Source: Sulfurospirillum arcachonense DSM 9755
GTDB lineage: Bacteria; Campylobacterota; Campylobacteria; Campylobacterales; Sulfurospirillaceae
Assembly: GCF_000597725.1 (NCBI RefSeq)
Contig: NZ_JFBL01000002.1
Coordinates: 124,001 to 188,000, forward strand
Direction of reading: 5' to 3'
DNA length: 64,000 nucleotides
Shown here: piece by piece, positions 48,096 through 58,170 of the stretch
Layout of the letters: each line of letters starts with the position of its first letter
How positions within the stretch are numbered: the first letter of the stretch is position 1
Position numbers and translations under genes: made by a program
The notes under the pieces: model-generated
Seen by the model: the letters and a program-made list of their open reading frames with translations, nothing else
Told to the model about the DNA's origin: nothing
Database searches by the model: none

Positions 48096-48356
48096 ATGAG
48101 AGATTTAGAGTTAAAAAATGTAATGAAGGTTGATGGAAGAGAGTTTTTGATTTCTACCATTAGTATGCATGTTCGTCACTCTTGGTTTGAAGATGATGTA
48201 AAAAAAGTTGTTTATGAAACTATGGTCTTTGAAGTTATTGACGATGAAGTGCAGTATCATCAAACAATTTTTAATGAACGTTATAATATGCCTGATGAAG
48301 CTATAGCAGAACATAGCGCTATTATTAAAAACCCTAAAAACTTTTTTATTATCTAA
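48096..48356 (+). CDS. Hypothetical protein, 86 aa
   Basis: An 86-residue acidic soluble protein preceded by GAGGT. It has no signal, membrane segment or recognised domain. Notable parts are STISMHVRHSWFEDDVKKVV and the C-terminal HSAIIKNPKNFFII. It is probably co-transcribed with the NSS symporter (15-bp gap) and ends just before a hairpin built from two TTACATGTAA copies. Function unknown. Confidence 0.65.
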   Translation: MRDLELKNVMKVDGREFLISTISMHVRHSWFEDDVKKVVYETMVFEVIDDEVQYHQTIFNERYNMPDEAIAEHSAIIKNPKNFFII

Positions 48357-48382: not shown

Positions 48383-48424
48383 GATTACATGTAAAGGCTA
48401 CCCTTTACATGTAATCCTTTTTTT
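48383..48424 (+). terminator. Terminator made of two inverted TTACATGTAA copies
   Basis: A perfect 15-bp stem (GATTACATGTAAAGG with CCTTTACATGTAATC) and a 4-base loop are followed by seven T. Each arm carries one exact copy of the dispersed palindrome (48385-48394 and 48405-48414). It lies between the convergent 86-aa gene and lldP, and its T-run reaches the lldP stop. Confidence 0.88.
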
Positions 48425-50120
48425 ACATTGTTTTCATAAGTGGATCTGTAAGACCTAAAGTATACATACCAATAAGACCTATGATACCAGCTAATAAACA
48501 ATAATAGATTGTAGGAATAATAGTTCTTCTTAAAGTTTCACCTTCTTGACCAAGAAGGCCTACTGTTGCTGATGCTGCAACAACATTGTGAATAGCTATC
48601 ATATTACCAGCTGCTGCTCCAACCGCCTGAAGAGCTACCATAAATGCTGTAGATAGACCAAGTGCACCTGCAACACCAAATTGGAATTGAGACAACATCA
48701 TATTTGATACAGTGTTACTACCTGCAATAAATGCACCAAGTGCACCAACCATCGGAGCAAATAAAGGATAAATGTCGCCAACAGTTGCAGCAACCCAATC
48801 AGCCATAACTACTGGCATAGATGCTAAATCAGCACCATTTACACCAGAATTAATTAATATTCTTACTAAAGGAATTGTAAATACAAGGACAAATCCTGCT
48901 CCAAGCATTACTTTAGAACTTTCTCCAATAGAAGCACTCATTTCTTTCATTGTCATTTTATGTAAAAAGAAAGTAATTAAAACTACGAATGCCAAAATTC
49001 CACCAGGAAGATAAAGAGGAACTATAGAGTATCCAAGACCTTCTCCTAGAATATCTTTAAATGGAATAACTATTGATTTTGTAAATGCTTTTGCAGTATC
49101 GCTCACTCTTGTAAGAACTAAAATAGCAGCAACCAAAACATAAGGAATCCAAGCCTTTGTTAAAGACATATCTATTTTTTCATTCATAGCGTCCATTTTG
49201 ATTTCAAATTGGCTTACCCAGTGAACTGGCCACTCTTCACGAGGGGCAAAATCCCAAGTATTTTTAGGAATTAAAAAGCCACTTTTTGCAGCTAATACTA
49301 CGATTGGCATACCAACAAGGGCACCTATAATTGAAGGAAATTCTGCTCCTAAAAAAACACCTGTTAGAGCGTAAGGTATTGTAAAAGATATACCACCAAA
49401 TATAGCAAATGGTAAGATAGATAATCCTTCTGTCCAAGATCTATTTTTACCAAAAAATCGAGTCATCATAACAATCATAAATAGAGGAATTAATGTTCCT
49501 ACTGTAGCATGAACAATAGCAACTTCACTTGTAATTGCTTGAAGATATGTATCCCAATTAGAACCCATATCTAATAAAGTTTTTCCTATACCTTCACTGT
49601 CTAATCCTTTATTTACACCAATTAAAATTGGAGTACCGACAGCTCCAAAAGATACTGGAGTACTTTGAATCATCATACCAATCATAACAGCAGCCATAGC
49701 TGGAAAACCAATAGCAACCATAAGTGGGGCTGCAATTGCAGCAGGTGTTCCAAAACCTGAAGCTCCTTCTATGAATGAACCAAATAACCAAGCAATAATA
49801 ATAACTTGAATTCTTCTATCTGGACTTACATTGTTAAACCCTTTTCGAATAACCGCAATTGCTCCAGAGTGTTTTAGTGTATTTAAAAGTAAAATTGCAC
49901 CAAAAATAATCCATAGAACAGCAATTGTAATGAGAAGCCCTTGAATCGATGATGCTAAGACTCTATTAAAAGAAACATCCCAAACAAAAATTGCTACAAG
50001 TGATGTTATAACATACACAATTGGCATAGCTTTTTTTGCAGGCATTCTAAATCCAACAAGCAATAAACCCGCACTTATTAGAGGGAGTGCTGCAAAAAAT
50101 GCAAGTAATCCTAAACTCAT
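48423..50120 (-). CDS. lldP: L-lactate permease
   Basis: A 565-residue polytopic permease of the LctP family, importing lactate (and often glycolate) with protons. Family blocks include [37 protein letters not shown], and a C-terminal block with [18 protein letters not shown] and [18 protein letters not shown]. About 14 helices are expected. It diverges from the sensor kinase gene at 50283 and is near the lactate dehydrogenase at 55304, so lactate use is the likely theme. Confidence 0.95.
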
Positions 50121-50241
50121 ATTTAATCCTTTTGAAGTTTGTTTCCCCCATGATAATTTAACGAAATGACATTCATATGATTTTATAAAAATTGTTACTA
50201 AATCGACACTATTTTTTTATCATGTGTTTCTTTTTGGAATG

Positions 50242-50250
50242 TGCTATACT
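50242..50250 (+). promoter_or_regulatory. Extended -10 promoter of the sensor kinase
   Basis: TGCTATACT stands 32 bp before the kinase ATG in the 162-bp gap divergent from lldP. Confidence 0.5.
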
Positions 50251-50282
50251 TTCTCTAATTATTTATGTGAGGCAAATATTAG

Positions 50283-52490
50283 ATGAGGTTTGTATTATTA
50301 TTTATAATTGTTACTTTTGAGTTGTTTGCTACTACAACTCCTAAAAATATACTTTTAGTTCACTCATATCATAAAGGGTATAAATGGAGTGATGATATTT
50401 CAAAAGTATTTGAGAATAGATTTGAGCTCAGAGGGGATGCTCATATTACGACCATATATATGGATACAAAGCGGGTTAATACACCTACATATATAGATAG
50501 ACTTTTTAAACTTTATAAAGAACAATTCAAACAAAGAAATTTTGATTTAATAGTTACTGTGGATAATAATGCGTTAGCGTTTGTCATGAAATATCATGAA
50601 CAACTTTTTAAAAATGTACCAATAGTTTTTTTAGGTATTAATAATCTTGATGGATTTAAGATAAAAGAAAATAATAAACGTTCGTATATAACAGGTGTTG
50701 TAGAAGAAGTTGATATTGAAAAAAATATAGATTTGATTTTAAAAATACATCCTACTTTAAAAAAACTAGTGATTATTAATGATCATTCTCGTACAGGTTA
50801 TGCAATCAAAAAAGATATATATAGAGTTTTACCAAAATATAAAGATAAATTAGAGTTTGAATATATAGATGACATAGAAATTTCTAATTTAAAAAGAAAA
50901 GTAAAAAATTTATCTAATCATACAGCAATTTTATGGGTTCTTCTTTTTAAAGATAAAACAGGACAAAATTTTACGCATATAGAAAGTTTAAAAGTTGTAA
51001 GAAAAGTAGCTCGCGTTCCTCTATATGGACTTTGGGATTTTTATTTAGGAGAAGGAATTGTTGGAGGAGTACTTACAAGTGCAACAGCACAAGCATATTT
51101 TGCTTCTAAAATGGTCAGTAAAATACTCAAAGGTGCAAATCCAGAAAAAATTCCAATTTTAAAAAAAAGTCCTAATAAATATATGTTTGATTATAATGAG
51201 TTGCAAGCATATAATATACATATACCTAAAAATATGCAAATATATGAGGTAATAAATAAACCTTTTTCTTTTTATGAAGAGTATAAACATTTAGTTTGGT
51301 TAATATTTTCTATAATAGCTGTAATTACAGCCATACTAATTTTATTAGCTACAAATGTAGCAAGAAGAAAAAAGAGTGAATTAGCACTTACAAATCAATT
51401 GAAGTTTATAGGTGTTTTAATGGATACTATTCCAAACCCTATAAATTATAAAAATTTAAATGGACAATATCTTGGCTGTAATAAAGCTTTTGCAGAACTT
51501 CTTGGAAAGAAAAAAGAAGAGATTTTTGGAAGAAGTGTTTTTGATTTTTTTTCAAGAGAATGGGCAGTTGAACAAAGAGATAAAGATAAAGAGTTATTGA
51601 AAAATGAAGGTACAAATCAATTTGAAAAAACACTTCATCTTGCTGATGGTACATCAAGAGTAGTTACTTTTAACAAAACAGTATATTCAAATATAGATGG
51701 AAATATTGGTGGAATAGTGAGTGTTATGGATGATGTTACTGAGAGAATTCAGCAAAAACAATTTATGATCCAACAAAGTAAATTAGCTGAAATGGGTGAA
51801 ATGGTAGGAGCTATTGCACATCAATGGAACGAACCATTAGTTGAACTCTCAGCAATACTTCAAGATATGGAATTTAGTTATGCACAAAATGAGATGAGTG
51901 AAGTAAAGATGAAAGAGTTTGTAAATGAGTCTATGGTTCAGATACAATATATGTCACAAACACTGAAAGATTTTAGGAATTTTTTAAAACCGTCAACTAA
52001 AAAAGTTTTCTTTTGTGCAAAAAAAGCATTAGATGATGTACAAGAGATAATTGGAAGACAAGTATTTTATGCTCATATAAATCTGAATATTACATGTAAA
52101 GATGACTATGTTCAAGTTTATGGATATGAAAATGAATTTAAACAAGTACTTTTAAATATAATTAATAATGCAAAAAATAAAATTGTTTCTAAAGGATATG
52201 GAAAAAATATTAATATTACTATTGAATCAAAAGAAAAGAACACACATATAAAAATAAGTGATGATGGAAGAGCAATTTCAAAAAAAATAATCAATTTTTT
52301 ATTCGATCCTTATTTTACTACAAATAAAGATGGTACAGGATTGGGACTTTATATGGCAAAAGTAATAGTAGAAGATAAAATGAATGGTAAAATAGATGTT
52401 TATAACTATTTTGATAAAGCAACATTTGAAATAGTTGTCCCAAGTACTAATAATGGAGACTATAGTGAAAATATTACTATTAGAAGATAA
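50283..52490 (+). CDS. Sensor kinase with periplasmic substrate-binding-like domain and PAS
   Basis: A 735-residue membrane kinase. After a signal-like helix (1-16), a periplasmic domain (about 20-325) resembles ABC-type solute-binding proteins of the ABC_sub_bind family (NILLVHSYHKGYKWSDDI, then IVTVDNNALAFVMKYH, VPIVFLGINNLDGF). A membrane helix follows at about 337-360, then a PAS domain (about 390-490) and a kinase core with His513 in GAIAHQWNEPL. The ATPase has NKDGTGLGLYMAK. The regulator gene begins inside its 3' end. Position suggests it senses a carboxylate and controls the TRAP and lactate genes. Confidence 0.9.
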   Translation: MRFVLLFIIVTFELFATTTPKNILLVHSYHKGYKWSDDISKVFENRFELRGDAHITTIYMDTKRVNTPTYIDRLFKLYKEQFKQRNFDLIVTVDNNALAFVMKYHEQLFKNVPIVFLGINNLDGFKIKENNKRSYITGVVEEVDIEKNIDLILKIHPTLKKLVIINDHSRTGYAIKKDIYRVLPKYKDKLEFEYIDDIEISNLKRKVKNLSNHTAILWVLLFKDKTGQNFTHIESLKVVRKVARVPLYGLWDFYLGEGIVGGVLTSATAQAYFASKMVSKILKGANPEKIPILKKSPNKYMFDYNELQAYNIHIPKNMQIYEVINKPFSFYEEYKHLVWLIFSIIAVITAILILLATNVARRKKSELALTNQLKFIGVLMDTIPNPINYKNLNGQYLGCNKAFAELLGKKKEEIFGRSVFDFFSREWAVEQRDKDKELLKNEGTNQFEKTLHLADGTSRVVTFNKTVYSNIDGNIGGIVSVMDDVTERIQQKQFMIQQSKLAEMGEMVGAIAHQWNEPLVELSAILQDMEFSYAQNEMSEVKMKEFVNESMVQIQYMSQTLKDFRNFLKPSTKKVFFCAKKALDDVQEIIGRQVFYAHINLNITCKDDYVQVYGYENEFKQVLLNIINNAKNKIVSKGYGKNINITIESKEKNTHIKISDDGRAISKKIINFLFDPYFTTNKDGTGLGLYMAKVIVEDKMNGKIDVYNYFDKATFEIVVPSTNNGDYSENITIRR
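52090..52099. repeat. TTACATGTAA palindrome
   Basis: Exact copy in the kinase gene, encoding Ile-Thr-Cys-Lys. Confidence 0.8.
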
Positions 52491-53124
52491 TAAAAGGTTG
52501 AATGAAACCATAGTTAAAAGATTAGAAATAAAAGGTTTCGAAGTTCATAGTTTTGTTGATGGTGAAGAAGCTTATAATGCAATAGATAATGGCTATATCT
52601 GTTTTATACTAGATATAAATGTTCCTTCACTTGATGGTACAGAACTTTTAAAAAGAATTAGAGAGTACAATATGGATACGCCAGTTATTATTATAAGTTC
52701 AACCGTAGAGTTAGATGTTATTAAAAATTCTTATAGTTATGGCTGTAATGATTATCTTAAAAAGCCTTTTTTTATAGATGAGTTAGAAATTAAAATAGAA
52801 AAGTTATGCCATTTTGACAAAGATATTATTGAGATAACAAAGAACTATAAATTTAACTTTAAAGATAGTCTTTTAGAAATAGATGGTAAATCAGAGCACC
52901 TTTCACGAAAAGAGAGATTACTTCTTAATCTTTTATTAGCACAACGAGGAAAAGTTGTCTCATTTGATACCATACAAGCTATTGTTTGGGAAGGTAATTA
53001 CGCTAGTATAGACTCAATTCGCTCACTTGTTAGAAGAGTGAGAAAAAAAATTCCGATAGATTGTATAGAAACAGCTGTAGATGTTGGATATTTTTTAAAA
53101 AAAGAAGAATATTGTCAAGCATAA
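52465..53124 (+). CDS. OmpR-type response regulator
   Basis: A 219-residue regulator. The receiver has LLLEDN, Asp50 in FILDINVPSLDG, and Lys in YLKKPFF. The C-terminal winged helix (about 130-215) has SIDSIRSLVRRVRKKI and VGYFL, and is somewhat diverged. The start is set at GTG 52465, six bases after GGAG, which gives the usual MKILLLEDN beginning; upstream in-frame ATG and TTG codons lack such a site. It overlaps the kinase gene by 26 bases. Likely targets are dctQM, directly downstream, and perhaps lldP. Confidence 0.88.
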   Translation: MKILLLEDNKRLNETIVKRLEIKGFEVHSFVDGEEAYNAIDNGYICFILDINVPSLDGTELLKRIREYNMDTPVIIISSTVELDVIKNSYSYGCNDYLKKPFFIDELEIKIEKLCHFDKDIIEITKNYKFNFKDSLLEIDGKSEHLSRKERLLLNLLLAQRGKVVSFDTIQAIVWEGNYASIDSIRSLVRRVRKKIPIDCIETAVDVGYFLKKEEYCQA

Positions 53125-53167
53125 AATTAAGTATAAATATTTTATTTTTTGGTCACACATTATATTA

Positions 53168-53176
53168 TGGTAAAAT
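53168..53176 (+). promoter_or_regulatory. Extended -10 promoter of dctQM
   Basis: TGGTAAAAT about 148 bp before dctQ, leaving a long AT-rich leader in the 199-bp gap after the regulator. A second -10-like TATACT lies at 53210-53215. No other feature is seen in the gap. Confidence 0.4.
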
Positions 53177-53323
53177 ATCGGACTATTTTTATGAGAAGAT
53201 AATTTATTGTATACTCATTCAATTATTTTATAACTTGATGTTTTAGCATTAATATAAAAAATTGAATAAAGAGCCAATTTTTTATTTTGTTTATAAAAAT
53301 GACTGAATAGACTAAGGATAATA

Positions 53324-53860
53324 ATGTTGTTAAAATTAGAAAGAGCTTTTGATAAGTTTGCTGATTTTATAGGAAATATAACAGGTATCTTAATGGTGCT
53401 AATGATGATAAATGTATTTTTTGATGTAATCATGAGGTATTTTTTTAATACAGGTTCAATTGGAATGCAAGAGATGGAGTGGCATCTGTTTTCTATAGTT
53501 TTTTTATTGGGAGTTTCGTATTCATTAAAAGAAGATGGACATGTGAGGGTTGATGTTATATATGACAATTTAAATTATAAAAAGAAAGCCATTATAAATA
53601 TAGTCGGAACTTTTATATTTTTAATTCCATTTGCACTATTGATTGGATTTGGTTCATTAGAGTTTGTGCAAGAATCATTTCAAACAGCTGAAATTAGTGG
53701 AGACCCAGGCGGGCTTACTCACAGATGGATTATAAAATCATTTGTACCTGCTTCAATGGTACTTCTTTGTATTGTTGCTGTTGGTTTTATTATAAAAAAT
53801 ATTAATATGTATTTAGGATTACACGGACATCCTCATGACTTTAAAGAGGATTCGCAATGA
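53324..53860 (+). CDS. dctQ: TRAP transporter small permease DctQ
   Basis: A 178-residue inner-membrane protein with four predicted helices (about 18-40, 53-72, 88-110, 140-162), the small subunit of a tripartite ATP-independent periplasmic transporter. Typical signs are NVFFDVIMRYFFNTGSIGMQE and the EWHLFSIVFLLGVSYSLKEDGHV region (split: EWHLFSIVFLLGVSY / SLKEDGHV). It overlaps dctM by 4 bases. The matching periplasmic protein is probably that at 45537. Confidence 0.9.
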   Translation: MLLKLERAFDKFADFIGNITGILMVLMMINVFFDVIMRYFFNTGSIGMQEMEWHLFSIVFLLGVSYSLKEDGHVRVDVIYDNLNYKKKAIINIVGTFIFLIPFALLIGFGSLEFVQESFQTAEISGDPGGLTHRWIIKSFVPASMVLLCIVAVGFIIKNINMYLGLHGHPHDFKEDSQ

Positions 53861-55206
53861 TAGGAATAGTAATGTTTTTTGCAGCACTTGCTATGCTGCT
53901 TTTTGGTTTTCCTGTTGCTTTTACCTTTGGTGCAGTATCTATAATTTTTGGATTTTTAGCGGGAATTTTAGAAGCATTTAGTTCTGATGAAACATTTTTT
54001 GAAGGTCTACAATACGGTATAGATATGTTTGCTTTCATGCCTCATAGAATTTGGGCCATTATGAATAATACAATTTTAATGGCAGTTCCTCTTTTTATAT
54101 TTATGGGAATTATTTTACAAAAAAGTAAATTAGCAGAGCGCCTTTTAGAATCTATGGGATACCTTTTTGGTGAACTTCGTGGTGGTGTTGCTATTAGTAC
54201 AGTTCTTGTAGGCTCACTTCTTGCTGCTTCAACAGGTGTTGTTGGTGCCAGTGTTGTTGCTATGGGGGTTATATCACTTCCAGTAATGATGAAATATAAT
54301 TATGATAAAGAGTTAGCAACTGGTACAATTTGTGCATCAGGAACACTAGGACAGATTATACCTCCTTCAATTGTCCTTATTATATTAGGAGATGTTTTTC
54401 AAGTTCCAGTTGGTGATCTTTTTCAAGCTGCTATCTGGCCAGGGCTATTTTTAGTTGGAGCTTATATTTTATATATTTTACTTTATTCTTATATAAAAAA
54501 AGATGCTGCTCCCCCTATCGTTATTGAAGGGGCTATTGGGTCAAAAACACAACAAGTTCTTAATGCTCTAAAGGCAATTCTCCCTCCGTTAGTACTTATT
54601 GTACTTGTTTTAGGATCTATTTTTATGGGTGTTGCAACCCCTACAGAATCAGCAGCAGTTGGTGGAGTAGGAGCTCTATTTTTGGCGATAGTATATAAAG
54701 AGTTTTCATTTAAAATGATTCATTCTAGTTCATTAGAAACAGTCAATATTACGGCAATGGTATTTGGTATTTTAATTGGAGCTACGGCATTTTCTATGGT
54801 ATTTACTTATACTGGTGGTGATACTATTGTTGAAGAGTTTATGTTGCAACTTCCTGGCGAAAAATGGGGTTTTTTAATTCTTTCAATGTTAGCAATTATG
54901 GTTTTAGGCTTTTTTATTGATTTTATTGAAATTTCATATATTATTGTACCTATTTTGGTTCCTATTGCTGAACAACTTGGACTTAATCCTGTATGGTATG
55001 CAATTTTAATTGCAATGAATTTACAGACATCATTTTTAACTCCTCCTTTTGGATTTAGTCTATTTTATTTAAAAGGTGTTGCTCCACCTAGTGTAAAAAC
55101 TATGCATATTTATAAAGGTGTTATACCTTTTATTATTATACAAATTATAGTGTTACTTTTACTGACTGTATATCCAGAATTATTTGGTATTAACAGATTA
55201 TTATAA
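53857..55206 (+). CDS. dctM: TRAP transporter large permease DctM
   Basis: A 449-residue polytopic membrane protein that carries the solute with Na+ in TRAP systems. Family blocks are LFGFPVAFTFGAVSIIFG, NTILMAVPLFIFMGIILQKS, GVVGASVVAMGVISLPVM, ASGTLGQIIPPSIVLIILG and the C-terminal LQTSFLTPPFGFSLFYLKG. Length is normal. It starts in the dctQ stop (ATGA). A strong hairpin ends the operon at 55207. Confidence 0.94.
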   Translation: MIGIVMFFAALAMLLFGFPVAFTFGAVSIIFGFLAGILEAFSSDETFFEGLQYGIDMFAFMPHRIWAIMNNTILMAVPLFIFMGIILQKSKLAERLLESMGYLFGELRGGVAISTVLVGSLLAASTGVVGASVVAMGVISLPVMMKYNYDKELATGTICASGTLGQIIPPSIVLIILGDVFQVPVGDLFQAAIWPGLFLVGAYILYILLYSYIKKDAAPPIVIEGAIGSKTQQVLNALKAILPPLVLIVLVLGSIFMGVATPTESAAVGGVGALFLAIVYKEFSFKMIHSSSLETVNITAMVFGILIGATAFSMVFTYTGGDTIVEEFMLQLPGEKWGFLILSMLAIMVLGFFIDFIEISYIIVPILVPIAEQLGLNPVWYAILIAMNLQTSFLTPPFGFSLFYLKGVAPPSVKTMHIYKGVIPFIIIQIIVLLLLTVYPELFGINRLL

Positions 55207-55241
55207 TTTTAAGACGAGAAGATTTTCTTCTCGTCTTAAAA
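55207..55241. terminator. Strong hairpin terminator after dctM
   Basis: A perfect 16-bp stem (TTTTAAGACGAGAAGA with TCTTCTCGTCTTAAAA) and loop TTT start directly after the stop codon. The A/T ends give a U-tract on either strand. Confidence 0.9.
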
Positions 55242-55267
55242 TATTATATATAAAGTTTAGTATCTTT

Positions 55268-55276
55268 TGCTAAAAT
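55268..55276 (+). promoter_or_regulatory. Extended -10 promoter of the lactate dehydrogenase
   Basis: TGCTAAAAT about 28 bp before the ATG at 55304, with AAAGGA between. Confidence 0.5.
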
Positions 55277-55303
55277 AACCTACTTAACTTAAAGGACATT
55301 TTT

Positions 55304-58132
55304 ATGTGTTTACTAGATGAATCTTATCTTGATTTTTATAAAAAGGTAAGCAATATATTACCTAAAGAGAGAGTTTTTACTGATCCTTTACATACTTTAG
55401 CTTATGGCACTGATGCCTCTTTTTATAGGTTGATTCCTAAAATTGTGGTTTGGGCAAAAACTGCTTCAGAAGTGAGTGAGATATTAAAGCTTTCAAGTTC
55501 AATGTCTTTACCTGTTGTATTTCGTGCAGCTGGAACCAGTTTATCAGGACAAGCGATTACAGATTCTATTTTAATAGTAACATCAAGAGATTGGAATAAA
55601 GTTGAAATCAATGAAGATGCTAGTTTAGTTACACTAGAACCTTCAGTTATAGGAAGTAGTGCTAATTTAGAATTATTACCATATGGGAAAAAAATTGGTC
55701 CAGATCCTGCAAGTATAAATTCTGCTATGATTGGTGGAATTGCTGCAAATAATGCCAGTGGTATGTGTTGTGGGATAAGTGATAATTCCTATAAAACATT
55801 AGAAAGTATGAAAATTATTTTTCATGATGGAAGAGAACTCGATACTGCTTCTAAAGAGAGTCGTGATGCATTTGCTAGGTCTCATCCTCATATAGTAGAA
55901 GAAATTAGTAAGTTAGCTCAAAAAGTAAATGATAACAAAGAGTTACATGACAAAATTGTTAGAAAATTTAAAATTAAAAATACTTGTGGGTATGCTCTTA
56001 ATGCTTTAGTTGATTTTGAAGATCCAATCGATATCATTTCTCATCTTATGATAGGAAGTGAAGGAACTTTAGGTTTTATTAAAGATATAACTTTTAAAAC
56101 AGTAGCTGAACACAAAGATAAAGCAAGTGCTTTGATGATATTTAAAAATATGAAAGATGCTTGTGATGCTGTTATGGTTCTTAAAACACAATGTAAAGAG
56201 AATGTAAGTGCTGCTGAAATCATGGATAGAGCTGGTTTAAGAAGTGTTGAAAATGAAGCAGGAATGCCATCATTTTTGAAAACTTTAGGAGTAGAAGCTA
56301 CTGCAGTACTTGTTGAAACAAGAGCTGAGAATAAAGAGATACTCAATACAAATATTGAAACTATATTAGATAAGTTAAAACATATAGAACCAGAATTGCC
56401 ATTGCAATTTACAGATAAAGTAGCAGAATATACACTTTTTTGGAAAATTAGAAAAGGTCTTTTCCCTGCGGTAGGTGCTGTAAGAAAAAGTGGCACGACT
56501 GTAATTATAGAAGACGTGGCATATCCTATTGAGAACTTAGCAGAAGCTACATTAGAGTTACAAGAGTTATTTAAAAAATACAATTACAATGAAGCGATTA
56601 TCTTTGGACATGCACTAGAGGGTAATTTACATTTTGTATTTACTCAAGCATTTGAAGAAGAATCTGAAATAAAACGTTATGAAATGTTTATGGAAGAAGT
56701 GGCAAATCAAGTTGCTGTGAAATATCAAGGAAGTTTAAAAGCAGAGCATGGTACAGGAAGAAATATGGCTCCTTTTGTTGAACTTGAATGGGGTGAAGAT
56801 GCCTATACTCTTATGAAAGAGATTAAGCAAATATTTGATCCAAAAGGTTTGATAAATCCAGGAGTTATTTTAAATGATGATAAGAAAATTCATCTTAAAA
56901 ACTTTAAAGCCATGCCAGCAACAAATGAATATATAGATAAATGTATAGAGTGTGGTTTTTGTGAACCAACCTGTCCTTCTCAGCATATAACACTAACTCC
57001 AAGACAAAGAATAGCATCTAATCGTTATATGACAACTTTAAAAGATGAAGGGAAAGAAAATCAATTAAAAGAGTTTAAAAAACTTTATCAGTATGACGGT
57101 GTTGAAACTTGTGCTACTTGTTCGTTATGTTCTTTATCTTGTCCAGTGGGCATTGATACAGGTAATTTAACAAAACAGATAAGAAGTGAGCAAATAGGCT
57201 CATTAGGGCATAGTGTAGCTGGTATGATAGCAAATAATTATTCTGGTGTACTAAGTGCAGGAAGAGTAGCTATGAGTGCCGTTAAATGGGTCAATAATAC
57301 ACTTATACCAAACAGTATAATGACAAAAATGAGTACTTCTTTAAGAACCTTGAGTGGAGATAGATTACCTTTATGGACAAAGAGTTTACCTAGTGGATAT
57401 AAATTTGAGGGTAAAACTACACTTAAAAGTGATGATAAAATTGTCTATTTTTCTTCATGTATCAATAGAACAATGGCAAATCCTAGTCAAAGAGAAGATG
57501 AAAAACCTTTAGATGTAGTGATAATTGGTTTATTAGAGCGTGCAGGTTATGAAGTAATTATTCCTAATGACATTGAGAATCTTTGTTGTGGAATGCCTTT
57601 TAGTTCAAAAGGTTATAAACCAGAAGGTAAAAAGAAATCAGACGAACTAGAAGAGCAATTAAGAATTGCAAGTAAAAATGGAAAATATCCAATCCTTTGT
57701 GATATGAGTCCTTGTAGCAAAACTATAGCAGCAAATTTTCCAGCAGATTTAAAAGTTCATGATACAGTCGAATTTATTTTAGAATTTTTAACTGATAAGT
57801 TAGAATTTCAACAAACAGCAGAACCAATAGTAATTCATACAACCTGTAGTACAAGAAAAACTGGTTTAGCTGATAAGTTTGAAAGTATTGCAAAAATGTG
57901 TAGCTCAAACGTTACAGTTCCAACAGATATAGGTTGCTGTGGTTTTGCTGGGGATAGAGGTTTTACATTTCCTGAACTCAATAAATCAGCACTAAAAGAT
58001 TTAAAAAGCTCAATTCCTTCTGATGTTAAATATGCATTTTCAACAAGTAAAACGTGTGAAATTGGTCTAAGTGAGCATAGTGGAATTGATTATAGGTCTA
58101 TATTTTATCTAGTAGAACGTTGTACTAAATAA
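55304..58132 (+). CDS. dld: D-lactate dehydrogenase, FAD/4Fe-4S (Dld-II type)
   Basis: A 942-residue membrane-associated flavoprotein that oxidises D-lactate to pyruvate and passes electrons to the quinone pool. The N-terminal FAD-binding type 4 domain has VVFRAAGTSLSGQAIT, and the FAD-oxidase C domain has the HALEGNLHFVF region and KAEHGTGRNMAPFVE. Two ferredoxin motifs follow (CIECGFCEPTCP near 546, CATCSLCSLSCP near 603), then two Cys-rich CCG modules (CCGMPF near 761, CCGFAG near 877). The architecture matches Shewanella Dld-II and Campylobacter homologues. Glycolate oxidase activity is a less likely alternative. Confidence 0.92.
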   Translation: MCLLDESYLDFYKKVSNILPKERVFTDPLHTLAYGTDASFYRLIPKIVVWAKTASEVSEILKLSSSMSLPVVFRAAGTSLSGQAITDSILIVTSRDWNKVEINEDASLVTLEPSVIGSSANLELLPYGKKIGPDPASINSAMIGGIAANNASGMCCGISDNSYKTLESMKIIFHDGRELDTASKESRDAFARSHPHIVEEISKLAQKVNDNKELHDKIVRKFKIKNTCGYALNALVDFEDPIDIISHLMIGSEGTLGFIKDITFKTVAEHKDKASALMIFKNMKDACDAVMVLKTQCKENVSAAEIMDRAGLRSVENEAGMPSFLKTLGVEATAVLVETRAENKEILNTNIETILDKLKHIEPELPLQFTDKVAEYTLFWKIRKGLFPAVGAVRKSGTTVIIEDVAYPIENLAEATLELQELFKKYNYNEAIIFGHALEGNLHFVFTQAFEEESEIKRYEMFMEEVANQVAVKYQGSLKAEHGTGRNMAPFVELEWGEDAYTLMKEIKQIFDPKGLINPGVILNDDKKIHLKNFKAMPATNEYIDKCIECGFCEPTCPSQHITLTPRQRIASNRYMTTLKDEGKENQLKEFKKLYQYDGVETCATCSLCSLSCPVGIDTGNLTKQIRSEQIGSLGHSVAGMIANNYSGVLSAGRVAMSAVKWVNNTLIPNSIMTKMSTSLRTLSGDRLPLWTKSLPSGYKFEGKTTLKSDDKIVYFSSCINRTMANPSQREDEKPLDVVIIGLLERAGYEVIIPNDIENLCCGMPFSSKGYKPEGKKKSDELEEQLRIASKNGKYPILCDMSPCSKTIAANFPADLKVHDTVEFILEFLTDKLEFQQTAEPIVIHTTCSTRKTGLADKFESIAKMCSSNVTVPTDIGCCGFAGDRGFTFPELNKSALKDLKSSIPSDVKYAFSTSKTCEIGLSEHSGIDYRSIFYLVERCTK

Positions 58133-58136
58133 GCTC

Positions 58137-58170
58137 TACATGTAAAGAGATTTTTTCTCTTTACATGTAA
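58137..58170. terminator. Hairpin of two inverted TACATGTA copies after dld
   Basis: A 14-bp stem (TACATGTAAAGAGA with TCTCTTTACATGTA) and a 5-T loop begin 4 bp after the dld stop. One arm holds an exact TTACATGTAA (58161-58170), the other the one-base variant CTACATGTAA (58136-58145). No T-run follows the stem. Confidence 0.7.

Follow-up and report, generated by a model that had tools for sequence, protein, structure and literature searches.

Most documented cases of DNA uptake guided by an over-represented sequence come, to our knowledge, from two bacterial families; we know of no such tags described in the Campylobacterota. All DUS- and USS-type uptake sequences known to us are asymmetric and oriented, a property that may not be a requirement. 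A spacing more even than random has been reported for some uptake sequences. The DUS of the Neisseriaceae are ~10-bp motifs that occur in hundreds to thousands of copies, form inverted pairs past genes and diverge into dialects between related species around a common core (PMC3630211, PMC1852404). In Neisseria meningitidis, paired uptake sites are concentrated in tail-to-tail spacers and carry T tails (PMC1852404). The USS of the Pasteurellaceae lie in both genes and spacers, have AT-rich flanks beyond the core and also form terminator pairs (PMC1852404). Cyanobacterial HIP1 (GCGATCGC) is a highly iterated perfect palindrome, present throughout a whole lineage and linked with methyltransferases (PMC4390886). 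Within the same order as the organism studied here, Campylobacter is described as marking self DNA for uptake with methylated RAATTY, which in Campylobacter jejuni is a short, degenerate palindrome read as N6-methyladenine (PMC10046745, citing Beauchamp et al. 2017).

The motif described here, TTACATGTAA of Sulfurospirillum arcachonense, shares traits with each of these systems. As with the Neisseriaceae DUS, a motif of about 10 bp occurs in hundreds of copies, is found as inverted pairs past genes and forms dialects around a common core; unlike the DUS, it is a perfect palindrome without orientation, has fewer copies and shows no directional T tail. Like the USS, it occurs in genes and spacers, has AT-rich flanks and forms pairs beyond genes, whereas the USS is asymmetric, the T-rich flank here is symmetric on both sides, and the phylum differs. 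The motif has the iterated, lineage-wide, perfectly palindromic form of HIP1 but another sequence, along with dialects and post-gene hairpins. In contrast to RAATTY, TTACATGTAA is long and strongly over-represented. Over-representation, post-gene inverted pairs and lineage dialects with a common core, all expected of an uptake sequence, were present, whilst an asymmetric, oriented motif and a spacing more even than random were not. Since its symmetry, T-tail direction and spacing are unlike those of DUS and USS, and HIP1 and RAATTY are symmetric too, we state that the motif resembles an uptake sequence and do not class it as one; by analogy, a function in uptake is plausible, if on balance slightly doubtful. 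The preliminary description of this locus had called the use of a repeat as a terminator part a hallmark of uptake sequences in other phyla, a fair analogy (PMC1852404, PMC3630211) except that the known sequences are not perfect palindromes. The open-licence literature yielded neither TTACATGTAA as a bacterial repeat nor an uptake sequence for Sulfurospirillum, and its titles and abstracts gave no report of natural transformation in this genus.

The motif was strongly enriched at every scale. The window (the whole 64,000-nucleotide stretch analysed here) contained 27 copies of TTACATGTAA at no more than one mismatch against 7.3 expected, a number reached by 0/100 shuffles. Single exact copies were located at 5-14 (no strand assigned) and at starts 1361, 2118, 4878, 5148, 11455, 15992, 18301, 31472, 31738, 32899, 33890, 37277 and 52090. 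Genome-wide, TTACATGTAA occurred 567 times exactly, compared to three times for a reversed-pattern control. It is a perfect palindrome with the core TACATGTA and an extended consensus near GCTTTACATGTAAAGC, whose outer flanks are T-rich and symmetric on both sides. T-richness at +5 to +9 likewise surrounded isolated in-gene copies and is thus part of the extended motif. In the sampled DNA of this genome, 8.6% of which was noncoding, 81/121 exact copies (~2/3) fell inside genes and ~1/3 in noncoding DNA, with only four in divergent (promoter-to-promoter) spacers. Density was 1.33 copies per kb in noncoding and 0.36 per kb in coding DNA, rising to ~3.3 per kb within the first 40 nt past stops. 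Spacing over 320 kb was not more even than random (CV 1.08 versus 0.97 for random placement). Long motif-free gaps were considered as mobile elements and this idea was rejected: the three longest in the 320 kb carried, judged by eye, ordinary-looking genes (transporter, respiratory, chaperonin and signalling), and their lengths were within chance. We regard TTACATGTAA as a family-specific, iterated DNA motif whose accumulation across the genome probably has nothing to do with the genes it lies in.

This enrichment was also apparent across the family and ended at its border. Most genomes of the window's family carried 100-1496 copies of TTACATGTAA, compared to 0-6 in 76 genomes from 22 other families of the order. 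When 84,980 species were searched with the long-stem pair pattern, 21 stretches matched; their labels were Sulfurospirillum, Campylobacterales or (two, from a single genome) 'Proteobacteria bacterium'. A single family, Sulfurospirillum and its relatives, has the motif, and the feature is real, strong, genome-wide and family-wide. In relatives poor in TTACATGTAA, the form CTACATGTAG often took its place, with 117-225 copies in seven genomes (G001, G008, G012, G015, G019, G021 and G023) and 0-3 in other families. One further family genome, G009, had 166 copies of TATCATGATA against two for the control (for example at loci L080-L083 and L171-L176) whilst TTACATGTAA was nearly absent (seven copies); TATCATGATA is probably a third dialect with the common CATG centre. 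The changes between TTACATGTAA and CTACATGTAG are symmetric around that centre, and in dialect genomes the hairpin arms were altered to match, for example TACATGTAGAGG..CCTCTACATGTA. Two genomes, G003 and G016, had few copies of any form tested. The CTACATGTAG-dialect genomes of genus g5 held few pairs (0-7 each), indicating that the motif does not depend on the hairpin. Elsewhere in the order, TAAATTTA was ~7.6-fold over-represented in 40 kb of a genome from another family (G053; L120 and L121), which could reflect AT bias or a link to RAATTY-type sites. Viral contigs (L228, L238 and L227/L233) carried repeated palindromes around TACATGTA, such as ATCTTACATGTAAGAT with seven copies in L228; these resemble dispersed phage-repressor operators and are probably unrelated to the bacterial motif. 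A correlation with competence genes was also considered and set aside. The S. arcachonense genome has both ComEC and DprA, as do almost all relatives, and each of the four outgroups tested has ComEC as well. Neither gene tracked motif abundance across the family; being near-universal, they are uninformative here.

Two inverted pairs of the motif form hairpins in the window. Hairpin 1 (48383-48416, no strand assigned) has a 15-bp stem with arms GATTACATGTAAAGG (48383-48397) and CCTTTACATGTAATC (48402-48416) around the 4-nt loop CTAC, and contains two exact copies of TTACATGTAA (48385-48394 and 48405-48414). Its minimum free energy (MFE) was -19.8 kcal/mol (z -10.2 versus shuffles). It sits between convergent genes, namely an 86-aa ORF without a Pfam match (48096-48356, + strand, stop at 48356) and an L-lactate permease gene (PF02652; 48423-50120, - strand, stop at 48423). 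The hairpin is followed on the + strand by a tail (48417-48424) of one C and then seven T (48418-48424), which overlaps the permease stop codon. Hairpin 2 (58137-58169, + strand) has a 14-bp stem, arms TACATGTAAAGAGA (58137-58150) and TCTCTTTACATGTA (58156-58169), and a loop of five T. It combines a variant copy, CTACATGTAA (58136-58145), with a single mismatch to TTACATGTAA, and an exact copy (58161-58170), and begins 5 nt past the stop (58132), i.e. with 4-nt spacing, of a dld-like FAD/Fe-S D-lactate dehydrogenase gene (55304-58132, + strand; PF01565, PF02913, Fer4, CCG). Its MFE was likewise -19.8 kcal/mol (z -7.9 versus shuffles), and the downstream sequence, AGAAAAATAA, holds no T tail. 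Both structures agree, with small refinements, with the preliminary description. Its further suggestion, that each palindromic arm could fold alone, was not borne out energetically, as isolated arms such as CTTTACATGTAAAG gave an MFE of 0.0. The window also has a motif-free hairpin with a perfect 17-bp stem (55206-55242), which overlaps the dctM stop codon and likewise lacks a clear T tail; post-stop hairpins in this genome are therefore not restricted to the motif. The corresponding spacer of two relatives carries a motif pair ~80 bp before the dld match (G026:C1:752632-752677 and G032:C1:670749-670793), and turnover of motif pairs from one gene end to the next seems to take place.

We further investigated the number and position of such pairs. 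The genome held 67 pairs of TACATGTA 4-34 nt apart and 29 pairs of the exact 10-mer, with none for either reversed-pattern control, and relatives had up to 70 pairs per genome (control 0). The proposal that inverted pairs recur after genes elsewhere was thus decisively upheld. Genes were predicted on ~0.8 Mb of sampled DNA from this genome using simple gene calls, allowing 59 of the 67 pairs to be inspected, of which 31 were noncoding and 28 inside genes. The noncoding pairs comprised 15 in convergent and 15 in codirectional spacers, one at a contig end and none in divergent spacers, and each of the 31 was flanked by the stop of a gene on one side or both. Amongst named Sulfurospirillum species from other genomes, 20 of 21 hairpins, chosen for a long stem and not for position, lay 3-16 nt from a stop and none was coding, in keeping with the post-stop location noted for the window. 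Noncoding and coding pairs also differed in structure. An inward extension of the stem by at least four complementary bases was found in 18/31 noncoding pairs but only 1/28 coding pairs (p=4.5e-6), and mean MFE was -18.9 for strong post-stop pairs versus -13.3 for coding pairs. The inner stem sequence varied between noncoding pairs, yet complementarity was kept, which argues for selection on the hairpin and not on a longer fixed repeat. Gaps of 12-14 nt, placing the palindrome centres 20-22 bp or two helical turns apart, occurred in 20/31 noncoding and 7/28 coding pairs. As the coding pairs lean the same way, a DNA-level cause of this spacing is possible. In-gene pairs also favoured the broader range of 12-17 nt (14/28), for which no RNA hairpin accounts, and a DNA-level preference for pair spacing near two helical turns may exist.

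These hairpins could be ordinary intrinsic terminators of the Neisseria and Haemophilus type, made from the repeat. A stable hairpin lies directly past the gene, hairpin 1 joins its 15-bp stem to seven T, and 13 of 23 long-stem pairs in the genome lie between convergent genes, recalling the tail-to-tail concentration of paired uptake sequences in N. meningitidis (PMC1852404). However, across 22 codirectional hairpins the 8 nt next to the stem held the same mean number of T whether they lay in the direction of transcription or against it (3.14 versus 3.14, p=0.97), TTTT occurred within 16 nt in only 20/62 tails, and hairpin 2 has no T tail. Motif-free hairpins of this genome had equally undirected T tails, so the test may be weak in such AT-rich DNA. 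In the absence of a directional T tail in the class, most of the hairpins are not canonical intrinsic terminators, and we regard this explanation as unlikely for the class as a whole. Transcript-end hairpins is the better description, with hairpin 1 among the few that have a strong T tail. The earlier view of the repeat as a terminator part consequently holds for the recurrence of post-gene hairpins and for the T run of hairpin 1, but not for T-tail enrichment in general. A gene for Rho is present in the genome.

Other explanations concern the motif itself. Its copies may be maintained, as in HIP1, by a DNA methyltransferase or a chromosome-maintenance protein instead of by uptake, the hairpins arising from abundance. 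The perfect palindrome, its over-representation (567 versus 3) in coding and noncoding DNA and the symmetric dialect changes around CATG are consistent with this, as is the precedent of an iterated palindrome linked with methyltransferases (PMC4390886), whereas descriptions of HIP1 give a single invariant sequence and dialects are found here; we consider this rather unlikely. Tandem sites for a dimeric DNA-binding protein (nucleoid, roadblock or segregation) set two helical turns apart, with the RNA hairpin incidental, would account for the 20-22 bp peak in centre-to-centre distance, and the operator-like TACATGTA palindromes of phage contigs suggest that proteins can read the core. Protein spacing alone, however, predicts none of the inner complementarity that separates noncoding from coding pairs, nor its retention whilst the inner stems differ from pair to pair, making this improbable. 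The density difference between noncoding and coding DNA would fit abundant copies gathering by chance in unconstrained spacers and pairing through density, but ~16 pairs are expected genome-wide on that basis (arithmetic from the sampled density) against 67 found, with stem and spacing biases besides, and we judge this very improbable. A transcription-factor operator shares the palindromic form and little else: with 567 copies, about two thirds of the exact copies sampled in genes and four in divergent spacers, it is the kind of site the preliminary description had already set aside, correctly, and we give it almost no weight.

The reading we favour, and hold to be fairly probable, is that of an iterated family motif whose post-stop pairs have been selected as transcript-end hairpins, with the uptake signal as its less certain part. 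Where two copies lie ~21 bp apart just past a stop, selection would have kept and lengthened their complementarity, and the outcome would be RNA hairpins of 14-17 bp capping transcript 3' ends. Judging from sequence and predicted folding, these hairpins may act in RNA stability or in termination; acting on RNA, they would protect transcripts ended by Rho or otherwise from 3' exonucleases, whilst a minority, such as hairpin 1, would work as intrinsic terminators. More tentatively, and with slightly less than even confidence, the motif may be a signal by which self DNA is recognised in natural transformation and may owe its spread to uptake bias, in which case the dialects would track a dimeric receptor or a DNA methyltransferase, both hypothetical. 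The fullest form of this idea, which we offer as a conjecture that is somewhat doubtful, is that the Sulfurospirillaceae possess a palindromic, dialect-forming uptake sequence, recognised either by a dimeric receptor or by way of methylation, with pairs reused as transcript-end hairpins; it would be the first over-represented uptake sequence in the Campylobacterota and the first that is perfectly symmetric.

A symmetric, family-wide motif with dialects, in a family related to that of Campylobacter, offers a direct test of how uptake-type signals arise, and its hairpins illustrate the reuse of a repeat in RNA. Finally, the motif could guide Sulfurospirillum genetics, through its placement on transforming DNA.
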